Shown here one piece after another: positions 609-10,895 of a stretch of 11,093 bases of DNA. The translations under genes and the position numbers were made by a program. Each line of letters opens with the position of its first letter. The stretch's first letter is position 1. This DNA comes from Pseudomonadota bacterium (GTDB lineage: Bacteria > Bdellovibrionota_C > UBA2361 > OMIW01), in assembly GCA_900299205.1 (NCBI GenBank), contig OMIW01000004.1:1-11093 (forward strand), read 5' to 3'. Below the pieces are notes generated by a model that was given only the letters and a program-made list of their open reading frames with translations, was not told where the DNA came from and ran no database searches.

Positions 609-941
609 TTGAGTCGGTTCGGACATCTTCGGACATCATAGTCCCCTCCGAACTTTTAGCCGGTTTCTTCAGGATGTTAGGCCATCCCGACGAGACGGCA
701 AGAGATTCGGCAGACAATCATCTTACCAAAAGCGGGCGTTACAAGAGGAAGGCGCCTAACCGAGCACTATATCAATTCCCCCCGGTATCTCGGCACGTGC
801 GTCGCTTCCCCCACTTCTCCAACTTCTCCGATTGCCGTTCCGCGCTAAATCCTTTAAAAAGGGGACTCATCGAAGGGCCGGGATTTTTTAATCTTACCCA
901 TCGGCGCATCAAACTTAGTTGTCGGGAATTCGGAGGATTGT
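609..941. other. gene-free leader upstream of the FadJ-like gene
   Basis: This 333-bp stretch has no convincing gene. It holds a tandem pair TTCGGACATC (618-627, 628-637), an 8-bp direct repeat ACTTCTCC (813-820, 822-829), and a perfect long-range complement GTTAGGC (676-682) with GCCTAAC (754-760) that would close a domain of about 85 nt. A promoter-like pair TTGCCG (832-837) and TAAAAA (855-860) with a 17-base gap is possible but weak. AAATCC (847-852) can pair with GGATTT (881-886), which runs into a T-tract, a weak attenuator-like shape. I recognise no known riboswitch class. Confidence 0.4.
932..936 (+). promoter_or_regulatory. ribosome binding site of the FadJ-like gene
   Basis: GGAGG lies 5 bases before ATG 942. 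It fixes the start of the long reading frame and gives the protein its extra polar N-terminus of about 55 residues. Confidence 0.7.
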
Positions 942-3212
942 ATGGGTGGGGAGGCTCAGGATCGGATGTCTTTTATCGAAAATCCTCGGGATGCGGTGCG
1001 CTCTCACCACGGAAGCGAGCAGCCGAATTCCCCTGAGAATGATGTCCGCAGGGATGATACCCCTTTGTCGAGAACGACGGACGCGAGCACAAATCCGTCC
1101 CCCAATCAGATTTCTTTTCTCGAGAGTGCCATCGCGCACATCCGTCTTGGTGCTCCTGGCGAATCAACCGTTATCCTCACAGAGGAGCGGCTTGAACAGC
1201 TGGGGCAACTTCTCGATCACGCGATCGCTCACAAAGCCAAAGGGATCATCCTGACGGGCCCGAGCGATGATATGTTTTCAGTGGGTGCTGATATCGGAGC
1301 GATCGAGCGGATCCAAAGCTCGTCCGAGGGGCGAGAGTTAGCATCGCTGGGCCAGGCACTTTTCGACCGGATCGAACACTCACCCATCCCGGTGGTTGCG
1401 GCTATCGCGGGTCCGTGTATTGGGGGAGCTCTCGAGCTCGCCCTTGCATGCTCGTCCCGTATCGCTGCGGATCGCCCCTCCACGAAGCTCGGGCTTCCTG
1501 AGGTGAAGATCGGGATCATCCCAGGGTTCGGGGGAACACAGCGTCTCACCCGTCTCATCGGGCTTCCTCGGGCGATGCACATGATCCTAAACGGTCGGAT
1601 CATCTCCCATCGCGAAGCTCTCAAGCTCGGCATCGTTTCGCGGATCGTCCCGACACCATCGCTGGTACGAACCGCAGAGGCGATGATTCTTGAGGGAATC
1701 TCTCGTCGCAGCCGCATGTCGCTTCTCGACAAGTTCTTCACCTTCACCCCACCCGGTCGCGCCCTCGTGCGACGACGGTGCGAGGGAGAGCTTGCCGCGC
1801 TTCACGGCCACTATCCCGCTCCTCAGAAGGCGTTGCGGTCGGCATTCGTTGGGCTCGAGAGGGGAATCCTCGCGGGGCTGCGGGCTGAGGCCGAGAGCAT
1901 CGGCGAACTTATCGTAACCCCCGAGTGCAAATCACTCGTGAAGTTATTTTTTCTGACGGAATCAGCAAAAAACCTCGGAAAGGGCGCACGTCGCTCCCTT
2001 GAGGGGCTTCAGGCCGTCGTGCTCGGAGCAAACCGAACGGGTGCGGCACTGACAGTCGACCTCGCACGTCGTGAATTCCCCGTGATTCTGCGCGACCCCT
2101 CCCCCGAGGCATTAACCCGCTCGATGGAGGATATTCGTCGCACCGTGAAGGGCTTTGGCTCTCTCTCGGAGGCGGATCGCAGTTTTGTCATCAACCGGAT
2201 TAACCCGCCGACTGGTACCCCCGCAGCGGTGGGAAGTGCTCAGGTCATTCTCGATAGCACCGTTGCCTCTCCCGCGCAGCGAAAACAGCATCTCACCGAA
2301 TTGGCGGCAACCGCTCAACCAACGAGTCTCATCGCAATCGGCGCAGCTCCGGGGGGGGTATCGAATCTCATGACGGATATTCCCCATCCCGAGCGGTGTC
2401 TTGGGATGCAGTTCTTTCCGAGAATCCACGGGTCATCGCTCGTCGAGATCGTACGCACCCCCGCCACAAGCCATCGATCACTCGCGCTCGCGGCCGCACT
2501 TGTCACCGGCATCGGACGATACCCCATTATCGTTGAAGACGGAGCCGGTCATCTCGTGGATCGCATCTTTGCGCCGTATCTGCTCGCTGCGTTGAGGCTC
2601 GTTCGGGAGGGCCATGCTATTGAGGACATTGATTCTGCGGCGACTCTTTTCGGCCTGCCGATCGGTCCCTTTTCGTACCTTGATCAACAAGGCTTTGATA
2701 CCGTCATACCGCTGCTGACGGCGCTCGCTGAAACTCACGGCGAAAGAATGGCGGGGGTCGAAGCCCTTATCGCACTCGCCGCCCAGGGACGTCGAGGTGC
2801 CGCGCACGGGGGCGGGTTCTACGATATGAGCACTAATCGTGAGCGAACCCCCGCTCCCGCTGTTCGAGAGATTCTCAAGCTCCCCACCGTATCGGAGCGG
2901 CTGGCTGCCGCGACGATTCTCCCCCTTCTCGTCTATCCGATGATCAACGAGGCGATCCGTTGCCTTGATGAGGGGGTCGCGGGCTCTCCCGGCATCGAAG
3001 CAGGCTTCCAGATCGATCTCGCCTCGGTGTTCGGCTTTGGGTTCCCGCCATTCCGAGGCGGTATCCTCCACTACGCCGAACGGGTCGGTGCAAAAACCAT
3101 CCTGCATCACCTCCACAACGCCGAGCGGGCGTTCGGGCCTCTGTTCAAGCCGACGAAAGGGTTGGCTCAAAGGAGCGCATCAGGGCGCAGCGTTTACGAT
3201 CCGTGTGGATGA
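942..3212 (+). CDS. FadJ-like enoyl-CoA hydratase / 3-hydroxyacyl-CoA dehydrogenase fusion, dehydrogenase half degenerate
   Basis: A 756-residue cytoplasmic protein with the layout of the beta-oxidation multifunctional enzyme: a polar N-terminal extension (1-55), crotonase domain (about 58-330), NAD-binding domain (about 354-540) and C-terminal 3HCDH domains (about 542-750). The crotonase half is intact: oxyanion region, catalytic Glu in GGALE165 and Glu in GLPE187. Their 22-residue spacing matches FadJ rather than FadB (20). The dehydrogenase half keeps its fold words (LVEIVRTP, GPFSYLD, GFGFPPFRGG) but not its chemistry: the Rossmann loop reads GANRTG (362-367) instead of GxGxxG, the catalytic His of G-M-H-F-F is Gln490, the SNTS segment is IGAA (466-469), and VNR is VDR (D540). 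Only the Glu of the His-Glu pair (E502) remains. It probably hydrates enoyl-CoA but may not oxidise hydroxyacyl-CoA. No thiolase partner (FadI/FadA) is adjacent. Length and reading frame show no damage, so this is not a pseudogene. Confidence 0.88.
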   Translation: MGGEAQDRMSFIENPRDAVRSHHGSEQPNSPENDVRRDDTPLSRTTDASTNPSPNQISFLESAIAHIRLGAPGESTVILTEERLEQLGQLLDHAIAHKAKGIILTGPSDDMFSVGADIGAIERIQSSSEGRELASLGQALFDRIEHSPIPVVAAIAGPCIGGALELALACSSRIAADRPSTKLGLPEVKIGIIPGFGGTQRLTRLIGLPRAMHMILNGRIISHREALKLGIVSRIVPTPSLVRTAEAMILEGISRRSRMSLLDKFFTFTPPGRALVRRRCEGELAALHGHYPAPQKALRSAFVGLERGILAGLRAEAESIGELIVTPECKSLVKLFFLTESAKNLGKGARRSLEGLQAVVLGANRTGAALTVDLARREFPVILRDPSPEALTRSMEDIRRTVKGFGSLSEADRSFVINRINPPTGTPAAVGSAQVILDSTVASPAQRKQHLTELAATAQPTSLIAIGAAPGGVSNLMTDIPHPERCLGMQFFPRIHGSSLVEIVRTPATSHRSLALAAALVTGIGRYPIIVEDGAGHLVDRIFAPYLLAALRLVREGHAIEDIDSAATLFGLPIGPFSYLDQQGFDTVIPLLTALAETHGERMAGVEALIALAAQGRRGAAHGGGFYDMSTNRERTPAPAVREILKLPTVSERLAAATILPLLVYPMINEAIRCLDEGVAGSPGIEAGFQIDLASVFGFGFPPFRGGILHYAERVGAKTILHHLHNAERAFGPLFKPTKGLAQRSASGRSVYDPCG

Positions 3213-3330: not shown

Positions 3331-4572
3331 TCAACCCTCGCGACGCATCACAACCGCAATCGCATTCCCCCCGAAACCCGCCGCGTTGATCATCATTGCG
3401 TGGCGGCGGTCAATGCCATGAGCGACTGCCTCCCTGTAACCCCGAAGCCCATAGCTCGAAAACGGGGGCGCGGCAGGAATCAGCCCCGCCATCAGCAGGT
3501 CGGCAAACTCCATACTCAGGAGCCCCGATGCCCCGTACGTGTGACCGGTCAACCACTTTGTCGATGTGATGAGCGGTGGCAACTGCTCAAAAACCGCGCG
3601 AAGAGCCCGCCACTCAGCACGATCCCCCTTAGGGGTACCCGGGGCGTGGCAGACAATTCCTGACAGGTTTTCCTTAGTGAGACAGCCATCTATGAGCGCT
3701 CGTCGCATCGCCCCCTGAAAATTTTCCCCCTCGCTTCCTATCCCAGTCAAAGACGGAGGCACCTCGGCGGCACAACCTATCGATGCGATCCAGCAGCTCG
3801 GCCCCGACAACTCCCCCGCCAGCATCTCAGAAACCACCACAACCGCCACCGCCCCCTCGCCGAGCACCATAGCGGGGCCAGGTGGTTCCTCGCCCGAAAA
3901 GGGCCGACATGGCCATCGCTCCCCTTCCCCAGCCCCGAATCGGGGCGATATACGAAGCGCCGCGACCTGGTCCACCGTAAAAGGAGTGATGGCCGCCTCG
4001 GCACCAACCACGACCGCGATATCAAGGTCCCCCGCTCGGATGAGGGCGCGAGCCACCAGCAGCGCGTGAAGTCCCGAAGTGCACGTCATCGAGGTATCAA
4101 TGCTCATCCCCGCATCGATGCCACACACCGCCGCAATCGACGAAGCAAGCACCCCGCCAGTCGTTGAGGGCGATGTCGTTACCGAAACTCCCTGCCCCTC
4201 CAAAAAGCGGCCATGCTCAGCTTCAAGTGAGCCAGTCGCTCCCCGAGCGCTGCCACACACGATTCCTACCCGTCGCCCGCGAAAAGAGAGCCCTCTGGCC
4301 CTCGCCTCCGCCACTGCATCAAGCGCCGCGTATCCGCCGAGCTGTACCACCCGATCCCGCTCAGCAAGCAGCGGTATCGTCCGACACCGCCCCTTCAGCG
4401 CCTCCTCTGCCGCTTCAGCAATTGGTATCGTCGGAAGCGCACCACCCCGAACTGGAAAAGGCACCACCCGGATCGCATCTCCCCCCACGCCGTAGCCTCG
4501 CGCTACCGACTCGCGATCCGCACCCAGCGATGAGATACGTCCCCATCCGGCAACCACAACCTCGCGCACCAT
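3331..4572 (-). CDS. FabF-type beta-ketoacyl synthase in the biotin operon
   Basis: A 413-residue condensing enzyme of the thiolase fold. Numbered from this start, the active site is complete: nucleophile Cys164 in S-M-T-C-T-S-G, first His309 in C-H-A-P-G-T-P-K-G-D, Lys339 and second His344 in S-T-K-W-L-T-G-H-T-Y-G-A-S-G, and a C-terminal N-A-A-G-F-G-G-N motif. Cys-His-His marks the KAS I/II class; KAS III enzymes such as FabH and BioZ use Cys-His-Asn. It would condense an acyl-ACP or acyl-CoA with a malonyl thioester in the cytoplasm. It lies 87 bases after bioD on the same strand, so a role in making the pimeloyl precursor of biotin is inferred from context only. The start at 4572 has GAGG 7 bases upstream and begins at the conserved V-R-E-V-V-V-A-G strand; an ATG at 4611 would add 13 residues with a poor ribosome site. 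Its coding strand is strongly G-rich. Confidence 0.85.
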   Translation of the reverse strand: MVREVVVAGWGRISSLGADRESVARGYGVGGDAIRVVPFPVRGGALPTIPIAEAAEEALKGRCRTIPLLAERDRVVQLGGYAALDAVAEARARGLSFRGRRVGIVCGSARGATGSLEAEHGRFLEGQGVSVTTSPSTTGGVLASSIAAVCGIDAGMSIDTSMTCTSGLHALLVARALIRAGDLDIAVVVGAEAAITPFTVDQVAALRISPRFGAGEGERWPCRPFSGEEPPGPAMVLGEGAVAVVVVSEMLAGELSGPSCWIASIGCAAEVPPSLTGIGSEGENFQGAMRRALIDGCLTKENLSGIVCHAPGTPKGDRAEWRALRAVFEQLPPLITSTKWLTGHTYGASGLLSMEFADLLMAGLIPAAPPFSSYGLRGYREAVAHGIDRRHAMMINAAGFGGNAIAVVMRREG

Positions 4573-4659
4573 ACCGTATCCTCGCCATCCGCAACTATTC
4601 ACCCCTGTCATTCCGAATAACTCTCATGAGAAGGTGGGCTTCATAGCTACCGCCATCCT

Positions 4660-5313
4660 TTAGTGGTGGTCACTACTTCGAGATGCGAACAGGGTCGCAC
4701 TCTCTCGAATCGCCGCAGGCGTCAACCGCTCCATCCACGGTACTCGCCCAAGCACTGGCACATCAGTGAAGCACTGTATCGAGCGCTCAGTTTCGGGATG
4801 CTCGTCTCCCACAAACACAATACCCGCGACCGAAAGCCCCCGCGACCGTAGGTAGGACACACTCAAAAGGGTGTGATTGATACTCCCCAGATAGTGCCGC
4901 GACACCAACACAATCGACGCCCCGAGCAACGGAGCGAGATCCGCAATGACGGCATCCGACGAAAGTGGCACCAAGAGCCCCCCCGCTCCCTCGATAATCA
5001 GAGGGCCATCTGTTTCCGGGCACGCCGCGGCTATCATCGCCATCGAGATCGTGACCCCCGCAGACGCCGCTGCCGCATCAGGGGATACCGGACGGGGGAA
5101 TGCGTACACTTCACGGTGACAACGAACCGAGCCCTCGGTCAGCTGGTGCACCGTGATTCGATCACTATCGCCTGAATCATCCTCTCCGCTCAGACTCCGC
5201 GCCCCCGTCTGAACAGGTTTCCAGTAGTCAGCTCCCCATGCGACCGAAAGCACCGCCGACACGACGGTCTTTCCTACATCGGTCCCTATTCCCGATACCA
5301 GCCACCGCTCCAT
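4660..5313 (-). CDS. bioD: ATP-dependent dethiobiotin synthetase BioD
   Basis: A 217-residue cytoplasmic enzyme that uses CO2 and ATP to close the ureido ring of dethiobiotin from 7,8-diaminopelargonate. Seen from the chosen start: P-loop G8-I-G-T-D-V-G-K15-T16, the substrate-binding stretch Y30-W-K32-P-V-Q, a V-S-P-D segment near the SPH position of other BioDs, and I-E-G-A-G-G-L-L-V-P-L. The wording, including R-H-Y-L-G-S-I-N-H-T-L-L, resembles from memory the Bacteroidota-like BioD group rather than E. coli BioD1. ATG 5313 overlaps the bioF stop as TGATG and has AGGAGG 6 bases upstream, inside the end of bioF, so translational coupling is likely. The 10-residue longer frame beginning at 5343 lacks such support. 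Length fits the family. The KAS gene follows 87 bases downstream. Confidence 0.93.
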   Translation of the reverse strand: MERWLVSGIGTDVGKTVVSAVLSVAWGADYWKPVQTGARSLSGEDDSGDSDRITVHQLTEGSVRCHREVYAFPRPVSPDAAAASAGVTISMAMIAAACPETDGPLIIEGAGGLLVPLSSDAVIADLAPLLGASIVLVSRHYLGSINHTLLSVSYLRSRGLSVAGIVFVGDEHPETERSIQCFTDVPVLGRVPWMERLTPAAIRESATLFASRSSDHH

Positions 5314-6476
5314 CACTCTCCTCCTCTCGATTCGGCCCGCCATCCCCGCTTTTCAAAGACCTGAATCAGCGATTTGTACACCGCCGGATCATCCCCCGCG
5401 TGAAGACACACCCGGATCCGCTCGAGCCCCTCAGGAACCGTCGGCGCAAGAATGGGCAACACCCGATAACCCGCCTCGCGCGCCGCCGTCGCCATGGCCC
5501 GAACGACCGCCACCCCCGGCATCACGATCGGCACAATAGGGCTCTCCCCTCGCCACGCCAACCCCGCGGCCCCTAACACCGCTTCCATCACCGAAATCCG
5601 TTCCCACAACGCGCGCCGCCGCGAATCCCCCTCTTCGCTCCCTCCCATCCGTACAGCCTCACGGATCGCGATGAAAAAAGTATCCGCCGGCGCGGTCGAA
5701 TAAATAAAGCTCCGCGCACGATTAATCAACCATCGTCGAAGCACCGAGGAACCTACCACACACGCCCCATGAACCCCCACCCCCTTCCCGAAGGTATGAA
5801 CCCGAGCGACAATCCGCTCTTCCAACCCCTCATCAACCACCATTCCCGAACCGTTCTTTCCGAGAATGCCAGTAGTATGCGCCTCATCAACGATGCAATC
5901 AGCACCCCACTGCTCACAAAGGACGACTACTTCGCGGAGCGGACACCGGTCCCCATCCATCGAGTACACACTCTCAACCACCACCCACACCCGTCCCCGC
6001 CGTGGCGCCCGCGCCAATTTATCGCTCAGATCACTGATGTCGTTGTGCCGAAACTTCCACCCCTTCGCCCCACTCAATCGGATCCCATCGCGCAGAGATG
6101 CATGAATGAGTTCATCAAACAGAACCAGATCCTCCCGACCCACCACCGCGGAAATCAAACCGATGTTCGCGGCATATCCCGAGGAAAAAACCAGCGCCGA
6201 CTCCCCCCGAAAATGCGCCGCTAACTCCCGCTCTGTTCCTTCCGCCAGCTCAGAGTTGCCTGTCAGCAGTCGGGACCCAGTGCTTCCTACCCGCTCCTCC
6301 TCCGCTGCAGCTGCAGCCGCGATTCGCATCCGCAGCGCCGGAAATTTCGCCAACCCCAGATAATCATTCGAGCAAAGGTCAATCAGATCCCCCCGGGACT
6401 CAGGAAGATATCGTTCCGAACCTCCTTCTCTCATACCTTCGAGACGTTCGCGCAGTACTCCATCGAACCCCGTCAT
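5313..6476 (-). CDS. bioF: 8-amino-7-oxononanoate (KAPA) synthase BioF
   Basis: A 387-residue PLP enzyme of the alpha-oxoamine synthase family, which joins pimeloyl-ACP or pimeloyl-CoA with L-alanine to give 7-keto-8-aminopelargonate, CoA/ACP and CO2, the first dedicated step of biotin-ring assembly. Seen: S-N-D-Y-L-G-L (36-42), G-S-T-G-S-R-L-L-T-G-N (64-74), H125 in the cofactor-stacking region, E168-S-V-Y-S-M-D-G-D, D197-E-A-H200, and the PLP lysine K231 in H-T-F-G-K-G. All expected catalytic positions are present, and length matches E. coli BioF (384). ATG 6476 has AAAGGGG 5 bases upstream; a 38-residue longer frame reaching 6590 does not look like family sequence. It is the first gene of bioF-bioD-KAS. 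Upstream (6477-6683) I find no recognisable BirA operator, so its control is unknown. Confidence 0.94.
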   Translation of the reverse strand: MTGFDGVLRERLEGMREGGSERYLPESRGDLIDLCSNDYLGLAKFPALRMRIAAAAAAEEERVGSTGSRLLTGNSELAEGTERELAAHFRGESALVFSSGYAANIGLISAVVGREDLVLFDELIHASLRDGIRLSGAKGWKFRHNDISDLSDKLARAPRRGRVWVVVESVYSMDGDRCPLREVVVLCEQWGADCIVDEAHTTGILGKNGSGMVVDEGLEERIVARVHTFGKGVGVHGACVVGSSVLRRWLINRARSFIYSTAPADTFFIAIREAVRMGGSEEGDSRRRALWERISVMEAVLGAAGLAWRGESPIVPIVMPGVAVVRAMATAAREAGYRVLPILAPTVPEGLERIRVCLHAGDDPAVYKSLIQVFEKRGWRAESRGGE

Positions 6477-6683
6477 GATTACCCCTTTCTTGATCCGAAC
6501 CCCAAACGGCGCGAGTATACGGCAACGGGGTTGGTCGGAGAAGACCAGGGTCGTGCAGATCGGGGACGATGAGGCCGTTTCGCCCTTCATGTCACCACCG
6601 TTTGTGCCGATACCGGAAGATAGTATCGAGGGCGATCAAAAGGGGCGGGCCCCCGCCACCCCCTGAGGTGAGGAGATTTCCGT
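6477..6683. promoter_or_regulatory. divergent intergenic region between bioF and the AAA+ gene
   Basis: This 207-bp stretch must contain start signals for both the bio operon (minus) and the AAA+ gene (plus), but no clear -35/-10 pair or BirA-like palindrome stands out. A very GC-rich inverted repeat, GGCGGG (6644-6649) facing CCCGCC (6652-6657), sits about 15 bases before the AAA+ ribosome site AGGAG (6671-6675), which lies 8 bases before ATG 6684. Confidence 0.4.
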
Positions 6684-7919
6684 ATGATTCCAAAGCGTCG
6701 CATGCGGCGACTCGCAGAGGCTGCCGCGGCAGCCAGAGGGGGAGGGCTCGCTCCCGCCGTAGCTCGGGCGGGACTCACCCTTGCCACCCCCACTGCAACG
6801 ACACAATCGGCCGGGTTAACGCTCAGCACCTCGGGCATCGCGAATCAATCCGAGTCACCTTCCACCTCCGCCGCCCCCTCATCGGAAAAAAGGGCCTCCG
6901 CCTCCCGATACGACCGCTACGTCAACACCCAATTCGTCTCCGACTACCCCGTCGAACGCCCCGGGTTCGCCCACATCGGCAACCCCCAGCAGCTCACCCG
7001 TAAGTTTGCGGATGTCGGCTATCAGTGCCTTCCATACCTCGCCATCCAGATAGCTCTCTGCCTTAATGCCGAGCGCTCCAGCATTCGCTCGCTCCTCCTC
7101 GAAGGCCCCTCGGGGTGCGGAAAGAGTTTTCTCGCAAAATCGCTCGCCAAAATATCGGGAGCTGAGCTGATGTGCCTTAGCTGCTATCAGGGAATGCCGA
7201 CGCAGAACCTGATAGAATCCCCGTCGACCCTCGCCCTCGCAAACGCCATGGCGCGGGGTGGTTCCGAAAATCCCGAAGAGCTCATGAACCTCGGGATATT
7301 GTCTCGCGCCTTCATGCGATCGCACTCGCATCCCGTTATTCTTCTCGTCGATGAGCTCGATAAACCAGATGCGTCTATCGACACCTTCTTCCTCGGGCCG
7401 ATTCAGGACGCACGGATCTGGCTCGAATCTCGCCCCCCTGTCGATGCCAATCCAAACAACCTCCTCATTATATTTACCAAAAACTTCAATCGAGTCGTCG
7501 ATGAGGCGCTTCTCCGACGATGTCAACCTGTGGTAATGACTTATCTCGATTCGACGCTCGAGCGAGAGATACTCTCCCCCTTTTGCGACCCGCGCCTTAT
7601 CGCCAATCTCGTCGGGCTCGCCGACCGAATGCGGTACGGCGGCGGCTCTTACCAATTCGACCGACCACCCGCCCCCGAGGAGCTGCTTCAGGCAGCGACC
7701 TATATTATCCAGTTAGTGCAGTGGGGATTTGTTGATTATCAGATAATGGGGCATAGCGTGTTCAACATTCTTGCCAAATCAGAACACGACCGGGCGGTGC
7801 TCGAACACATGATGCGGTACCACCCCGATTTCGCTGAGGGAACAATCGATCCCAAAAATATGACGGTGGACGATGTGTATCGGAAATTCGGGCGGGTACT
7901 ACTCGCGGGAATCGCGTGA
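6684..7919 (+). CDS. MoxR-like / AAA_5-type AAA+ ATPase
   Basis: A 411-residue predicted ATPase. Residues 1-75 are low-complexity (Ala, Ser, Thr, Arg) and look disordered. The core shows Walker A G141-P-S-G-C-G-K147-S, Walker B V-I-L-L-V-D223-E224-L-D, sensor-1-like F-T-K-N267, and an R278-R279 pair placed like an arginine finger in A-L-L-R-R-C. A helical region (about 300-411) follows with no domain I can name. Such ATPases remodel partner proteins or complexes and often sit beside a von Willebrand A gene; none is seen here, so the partner is unknown. The start is well supported by AGGAG 8 bases upstream. It is divergent from bioF and followed by tRNA-Met on the other strand, so it appears to be a single-gene unit. 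All ATPase motifs are intact. Its specific job cannot be told from sequence. Confidence 0.8.
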   Translation: MIPKRRMRRLAEAAAAARGGGLAPAVARAGLTLATPTATTQSAGLTLSTSGIANQSESPSTSAAPSSEKRASASRYDRYVNTQFVSDYPVERPGFAHIGNPQQLTRKFADVGYQCLPYLAIQIALCLNAERSSIRSLLLEGPSGCGKSFLAKSLAKISGAELMCLSCYQGMPTQNLIESPSTLALANAMARGGSENPEELMNLGILSRAFMRSHSHPVILLVDELDKPDASIDTFFLGPIQDARIWLESRPPVDANPNNLLIIFTKNFNRVVDEALLRRCQPVVMTYLDSTLEREILSPFCDPRLIANLVGLADRMRYGGGSYQFDRPPAPEELLQAATYIIQLVQWGFVDYQIMGHSVFNILAKSEHDRAVLEHMMRYHPDFAEGTIDPKNMTVDDVYRKFGRVLLAGIA

Positions 7920-9830: not shown

Positions 9831-10895
9831 TTAGATTCTCGGCTGCATATCCATCAGCAAATCGAACTGAGCCATGATCATCGGTTCGACCTTCGTGAGA
9901 AATTCGGTAACCGATTCCTCCTCAGCCAAAAGAGCACAGCATCGAGAGATGCCTTGGAAAAATATATCGGTCAATCCTTGGGCAGTTTGGCTGTGAGGTG
10001 GATAGCAACGACCACCCTCTGTGAAGCTCAGGGCCCGAGGGTTTAGAGGCGTTTCGATGCAGTTCCAACCGTCGGGCAGATCGCTATCCTCTTTGTAATA
10101 CCGAGCTATCCTCGCCTGGAGAAGAGCATTTGGCGACAAAACCTCCCCCATCTCGCAAATCCCCGCGCCCCTTGCCTTCACTAGCTTTTTCTCGTCTGCA
10201 CAGTATGAAAGCCAATCCTTTATAAAGCTCAATAGACTGATAGAAAAAAGGCTGTCCGCATCGAAATGATGCCTACCCATGGGAGGAAGCTCTTCATATT
10301 TTCCTATGAGCGGATGATCGTGCTTCTCGATGACGGTCAAAAATGTTTCGGTGTCAGCGCAAAGAGGAATTTTCTCGCCAGAGCCTCGCAAATGTTTCAC
10401 GACCCACTCTCGGCCGAGTTCTGCTGACAATCGTGAGTGCAACAAGCGGGTATCGACATTCTCCCAGTGTGCCCCATCTCGTTGCTGATAATCACGAGCC
10501 GTCTGGTCATTATTGCTCGCTAAAATCGCATAGCCTCTGTCATGCAAAATCGCCGCAGTTATCAACCACGAAGGGAGATCCTCGGAGGCTACGATACGCT
10601 GCATTGCAGACACGACGATAATGTCGTGAGGGTCGCGGTACCAATCTTTCGGGCTATACGGATGAGCTTTTGCAACCCACGCGTACAACTCCCGATCAAA
10701 TGGGGTGAGAGCATTCGTGAAGGCATCACTGTAGGTGGTAAACGCTTGCGAGGCGATCTTCTTTAGACCCTCGAGGAGTTCCTCTCGGGGGCCGGGATCA
10801 TTCGGCACCTTGTAAGAAAGGGGTAAGACGGGCATCGTCGACATCAGCCCCCTTCCCGACAGTTGGGTAGGACCGGGTTCGCTGTTCGGTAACAA
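9831..10895 (-). CDS. HD-domain-like metal-dependent phosphohydrolase, function unknown
   Basis: A 354-residue, apparently soluble protein. Seen: H90 in D-P-H-D, the doublet H118-D119 in A-A-I-L-H-D-R-G-Y-A, further His at 153 (L-L-H-S-R-L), 192 and 194 (K-H-D-H-P), and D212/D214 in H-H-F-D-A-D-S-L-F. The order H...HD...D with helical spacing fits the HD superfamily of metal-dependent phosphohydrolases acting on nucleotides or cyclic nucleotides. I cannot assign a subfamily or substrate. The C-terminal half (about 230-354) matches no family I know. The chosen start is TTG 10895 with a strong AGGAGG 4 bases upstream; ATG 10844 or 10835 would remove 17 or 20 residues and have less well spaced ribosome sites. 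Base composition is less GC-rich than the 942-9265 block, and a group II intron end lies just upstream, both fitting an accessory region. Confidence 0.65.
   Translation of the reverse strand: MLPNSEPGPTQLSGRGLMSTMPVLPLSYKVPNDPGPREELLEGLKKIASQAFTTYSDAFTNALTPFDRELYAWVAKAHPYSPKDWYRDPHDIIVVSAMQRIVASEDLPSWLITAAILHDRGYAILASNNDQTARDYQQRDGAHWENVDTRLLHSRLSAELGREWVVKHLRGSGEKIPLCADTETFLTVIEKHDHPLIGKYEELPPMGRHHFDADSLFSISLLSFIKDWLSYCADEKKLVKARGAGICEMGEVLSPNALLQARIARYYKEDSDLPDGWNCIETPLNPRALSFTEGGRCYPPHSQTAQGLTDIFFQGISRCCALLAEEESVTEFLTKVEPMIMAQFDLLMDMQPRI

Follow-up and report, generated by a model that had tools for sequence, protein, structure and literature searches.

The FadJ gene and its surroundings

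The stretch of DNA analysed here (11,093 nucleotides, hereafter the window) carries on its forward strand a gene for a FadJ-type protein, for which the following features were assigned; counts refer to the conservation test described below.

931..944, +: Shine-Dalgarno-like GGAGG and ATG start (direct reading)
942..3212, +: whole 756-aa multifunctional protein of FadJ type, without its dehydrogenase site (domains, alignments, predicted fold)
942..1094, +: polar extension at the N terminus, residues 1-51 (pLDDT below 50, predicted to be disordered)
1113..1691, +: crotonase (enoyl-CoA hydratase) core, residues 58-250 (keeps Glu165, Glu187 and 31/36 conserved positions)
2013..2540, +: degenerate HADH N domain for NAD binding, residues 358-533, with GANRTG, IGAAP and Gln490 (11/30 conserved positions)
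2409..2411, +: codon of Gln490, at the position of the catalytic His158 (alignment)
2541..2831, +: HADH C1 domain, residues 534-630 (20/29 conserved positions; Asp540 in place of Asn208)
2832..3200, +: HADH C2/scaffold domain, residues 631-753, with GFGFPPFRGG (10/11 conserved positions)

The 756-codon frame contains no internal stop, as an earlier sequence-only reading had stated; about 60 stops would be expected from one neutral change per site, yet the frame is open, and its codon composition resembles that of the neighbouring genes. The product scored above the cut-offs for Pfam ECH_1, 3HCDH_N and 3HCDH, and the crotonase, HADH_N and HADH_C architecture of FadJ/FadB was recovered by Pfam and by whole-length matching with Foldseek and VIA. 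Scores for both NCBIfam FadJ equivalogs (464.5 bits, cut-off 869; 407.8 bits, cut-off 968) and for the FadB equivalog (367 bits, cut-off 870) were below the cut-offs. An AlphaFold2 model built from an alignment of orthologues from the same class (pLDDT 88, pTM 0.87) predicted the full FadJ fold, and was superimposed on E. coli FadJ over its whole length with Z 46.5 and an rmsd of 2.3 for 685 residues. The nearest solved structures are those of E. coli FadJ (6ysv, 8bnr) and of other trifunctional enzyme alpha subunits. The polar N-terminal extension noted earlier is present, and residues 1-51 are the only disordered part of the model.

Upstream of the gene lie two small Flp-type pilin-like ORFs (8-220 and 405-608, +) with the motifs GAGMIEYALL and GAGLLEYALI. 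At 3331-6590 (-) the genes bioD and bioF stand in tandem with one for a FabF-like ketoacyl synthase, which has Cys/His/His motifs and is perhaps dedicated to the biotin pimelate chain. A functional link of FadJ with these adjacent biotin genes was considered and dropped: the genes are convergent and do not form one operon, and no evidence for such a link was found. A MoxR/MadB-like AAA ATPase is encoded at 6684-7919 (+); its score of 72.8 bits is far below the MadB cut-off of 475. The ORF at 9831-10895 (-; 354 aa), which has an HD-like motif (LHDRGY) and a G+C content of 52 %, below that of its neighbours, gave no Pfam or NCBIfam match.

The hydratase and dehydrogenase sites

Active-site residues were placed by alignment with E. 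coli FadJ (6ysv), E. coli FadB (6tnm), P. fragi FadB (1wdk) and about 30 orthologues of the class; the alignments to the three structures were unambiguous across the dehydrogenase site. The human HADH numbers used here come from what is established about that enzyme, by counting residues through the motif.

In the crotonase half the catalytic pair Glu165/Glu187 is intact, in agreement with the earlier reading, and the oxyanion-hole motifs (GAD at 115-117 and G161-G162) are retained; these residues suggest that hydratase activity is retained. The Ser-His-Glu-Asn site of the dehydrogenase half keeps only its Glu (E502, equivalent to Glu170). His158 is replaced by Gln490 and the Asn of VNR (Asn208) by Asp540, while HFFNP reads QFFPR, with Pro493 in place of the motif Asn. 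The dinucleotide loop GxGxxG is GANRTG at 362-367, with Asn364 in place of the middle Gly; Asp385, which follows the second Rossmann strand, is kept. The alignments with FadJ and FadB thus bear out the His, Asn and loop changes that had been read from the sequence. The reported replacement of SNTS by IGAA also holds with a minor correction: SNTSS is replaced by IGAAP at 466-470, and it is the final Ala of IGAA, Ala469, that corresponds to Ser137. The HADH half has lost its catalytic residues within a fold that is predicted to be retained, as in a pseudoenzyme, and these substitutions suggest a loss of dehydrogenase activity.

As a measure of conservation, 113 alignment columns were used that are conserved among 28 intact proteins. 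Of these the window protein keeps 31/36 (crotonase), 7/7 (linker), 11/30 (NAD domain), 20/29 (C1) and 10/11 (C2), so that losses amount to 28/59 in HADH N plus C1 versus 6/54 elsewhere (Fisher p = 3e-5). In a leave-one-out baseline the intact proteins keep 95-99 % on average in each domain. As an outside control, 40 FadJ-type proteins from genomes that do not belong to the class were examined, with reading frames picked by BLAST; in all 40 the site has Ser/Thr, His and Glu, and the GxGxxG loop is present. Seven of them have Thr or Ser at the Asn208 position with the rest of the site intact, and the Asn208 change was therefore dropped as proof on its own. The orthologue alignment, the baseline and the control support the view that the dehydrogenase site was lost selectively, the hydratase site and scaffold being retained, and C2, with the C-terminal signature GFGFPPFRGG, is as well kept as had been claimed.

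Relatives, independent losses and metabolic setting

Full-length homologues were found in most of 45 genomes of the class, the nearest with 41-44 % identity; no second genome of the window genome's family was present among the 45. A search for orthologues with the same changes identified two (G005_L024 and G035_L081) that also lack Ser, His and Asn and keep the Glu170 equivalent and the hydratase Glu pair. Together with the window protein they are the three class homologues without the catalytic His (3/37 in the class versus 0/40 outside, p = 0.11, which is not significant on counts alone). The residues at the Ser/His/Asn positions differ: A/Q/D in the window protein, Pro/Ser/Met in G005 and Met/Asn/Met in G035. 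The crotonase domain of the G035 protein is degraded, keeping 17/36 conserved positions with a changed oxyanion motif; judged from these residues, hydratase retention appears to hold for the window and G005 proteins and not clearly for that of G035.

In the full-length FadJ tree the three altered proteins join with 98 % SH-aLRT, all on long branches (2.06 changes per column on the terminal branch of the window protein), but in a tree of the crotonase half only they are not joined. The RpoC tree set G035 apart, in a group with full support; a single clade of the window genome, G005 and G035 was rejected (p = 5e-6), while the window genome and G005 as sisters were not (p-AU 0.41). A single origin of the altered proteins was discarded on these grounds, and their joining in the full-length tree is probably long-branch attraction. 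Since RpoC rejects one clade of the three, the dehydrogenase site was lost at least twice, perhaps three times. The G005 gene has neighbours in common with the intact copy in G015 (a downstream 141-aa ORF and ArgRS), and the G035 gene shares a divergent 149-183-aa ORF with G041; such neighbours, common to intact copies elsewhere, argue for inheritance in place.

No thiolase gene was found beside the FadJ gene or elsewhere in the window. The absence had been pointed out as a peculiarity and is correct, yet it is no special feature, as most class relatives with a neighbourhood that was read have no thiolase beside FadJ either, and intact-site copies adjoin housekeeping genes (IleRS, ArgRS) instead. 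In several class genomes a solo FadJ gene directly follows that of a class I, IleRS-like tRNA synthetase, and the G005 FadJ gene overlaps a purL-like gene (L073, L077, L074, L079; L072), a housekeeping setting that is unusual for a beta-oxidation gene.

The window genome encodes six acyl-CoA dehydrogenases, two true thiolases and ETF. It also has a standalone 3-hydroxyacyl-CoA dehydrogenase with intact motifs on contig C133 (SNTSS/HFMNP/VNR) and two dehydrogenase-hydratase fusion proteins, likewise with intact dehydrogenase motifs, one on C26 (TNTSG/HFFNP/GNR) and one on C160 (SNTSS/HFFNP/ANR), the latter adjoining a thiolase gene. Across the class an intact solo FadJ occurs in 31/37 genomes with a true thiolase versus 0/5 without (p = 5e-4, uncorrected for kinship). 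G011 and G037 have no true thiolase, acyl-CoA dehydrogenase or FadJ, and G032 has no true thiolase and no FadJ. In G005 and G035 thiolase-family matches were weak (about 24 bits) and acyl-CoA dehydrogenase matches absent, although G005 is 85 % complete and some of its absences could be gaps. Divergent EtfA/EtfB-type pairs are present in both genomes despite the absence of acyl-CoA dehydrogenase matches (L140:703-2590 and L141:8186-10026), the pair in G035 being preceded by a 616-aa EtfQO-looking ORF.

Interpretation and comparison with known enzymes

The window protein, a FadJ orthologue, has probably become a (3S)-type 2-enoyl-CoA hydratase that is monofunctional, its dehydrogenase half being a structural pseudoenzyme. 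The crotonase half would hydrate 2-enoyl-CoA, or dehydrate the product, by means of Glu165/Glu187, possibly with the Delta3-Delta2 isomerase activity that is usual for this crotonase type. The HADH half, probably without productive NAD+ binding or 3-hydroxyacyl-CoA oxidation, would persist purely as a folded scaffold packed against the crotonase half. We propose that its C2 domain and the linker complete the crotonase half and that the HADH half has been retained for this reason; this role is suggested by the conservation pattern and by knowledge of trifunctional-enzyme structures. The 3-hydroxyacyl-CoA would pass to the separate dehydrogenases (the standalone enzyme on C133 and the fusions on C26 and C160), and this redundancy may have relieved the protein of the redox step. 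Against this reading, the hydratase half in G035 is degraded as well, which shows that loss need not halt at the dehydrogenase.

Sequencing or assembly errors are hardly a credible source of the changes: the genome is a draft of 206 contigs, but several separate multi-base codon changes lie in an otherwise perfect frame and two further assemblies show changes at these sites. It is also very unlikely that the dehydrogenase still works with relocated residues. His537, which stands three residues ahead of Asp540 where Phe is normal, and His496 are unique to the window protein among class homologues and lie near the site in the sequence, Glu502 and Asp385 are kept, and a change at Asn208 alone is natural, as the seven outside homologues show. 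Against this, the Ser, His, Asn, HFFNP Asn and middle Gly of the dinucleotide loop have all changed together, and no relative shows an intermediate state.

Decay of a gene whose beta-oxidation role has been taken by other enzymes, so that under relaxed selection no important function is left, would account for the long terminal branch, the redundant enzymes in the genome and the erosion of the G035 orthologue throughout. The complete frame, neighbour-like codons, good Shine-Dalgarno sequence and well-kept hydratase and C2 positions make it unlikely. We regard as similarly improbable a new role for the HADH half (sensing of acyl-CoA or nucleotides, a scaffold for a partner protein or different chemistry), which would make the protein a regulator or give it a new activity. 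The retained fold of this half and conserved C-terminal surfaces would fit, as would the persistence of FadJ in G005 and G035 without thiolase or acyl-CoA dehydrogenase; however, no conserved partner gene lies beside the altered copies, and the three altered proteins have no new residues in common at the lost positions. A shared new active site was rejected accordingly, as the replacements A/Q/D, P/S/M and M/N/M show no pattern. The earlier suggestion of either a monofunctional hydratase or a new activity is therefore upheld for the selective loss and not for the new activity.

With regard to the class as a whole, we tentatively suggest that solo FadJ may have a second, beta-oxidation-independent role, carried by the hydratase half and scaffold, such that the dehydrogenase site could be lost repeatedly with the protein kept, even where thiolases and acyl-CoA dehydrogenases are lacking. 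Automatic annotation treats FadJ/FadB proteins as bifunctional, and for the window protein this would misdescribe the redox half. Repeated loss of one half offers a natural test of the structural need of the crotonase half for the HADH half, and points to a possible use of FadJ outside beta-oxidation in this class. A literature search found nothing relevant on FadJ with an inactive dehydrogenase domain.

E. coli FadJ, the alpha subunit of the anaerobic trifunctional enzyme (6ysv/8bnr), has 31 % identity with the window protein and the same domain order, fold and hydratase Glu pair, whereas in the window protein the dehydrogenase Ser, His and Asn and the GxGxxG loop are missing, as is an adjoining thiolase gene. 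A Ralstonia protein of this architecture (6ium) is deposited as an enoyl-CoA hydratase. The dehydrogenase-first (FadN-like) fusions on C26 and C160 combine the same hydratase and dehydrogenase domains; they differ in the reversed domain order, in their intact dehydrogenase motifs and, for C160, in the thiolase neighbour. The solo FadJ orthologues of the class (for example G014, G015, G006; L013-L017) have the architecture of the window protein and, where the neighbourhood was read, likewise no thiolase neighbour, but unlike the window, G005 and G035 proteins they keep the full dehydrogenase site. The G005 and G035 proteins have lost the same three catalytic residues, with replacements that differ from those in the window protein.
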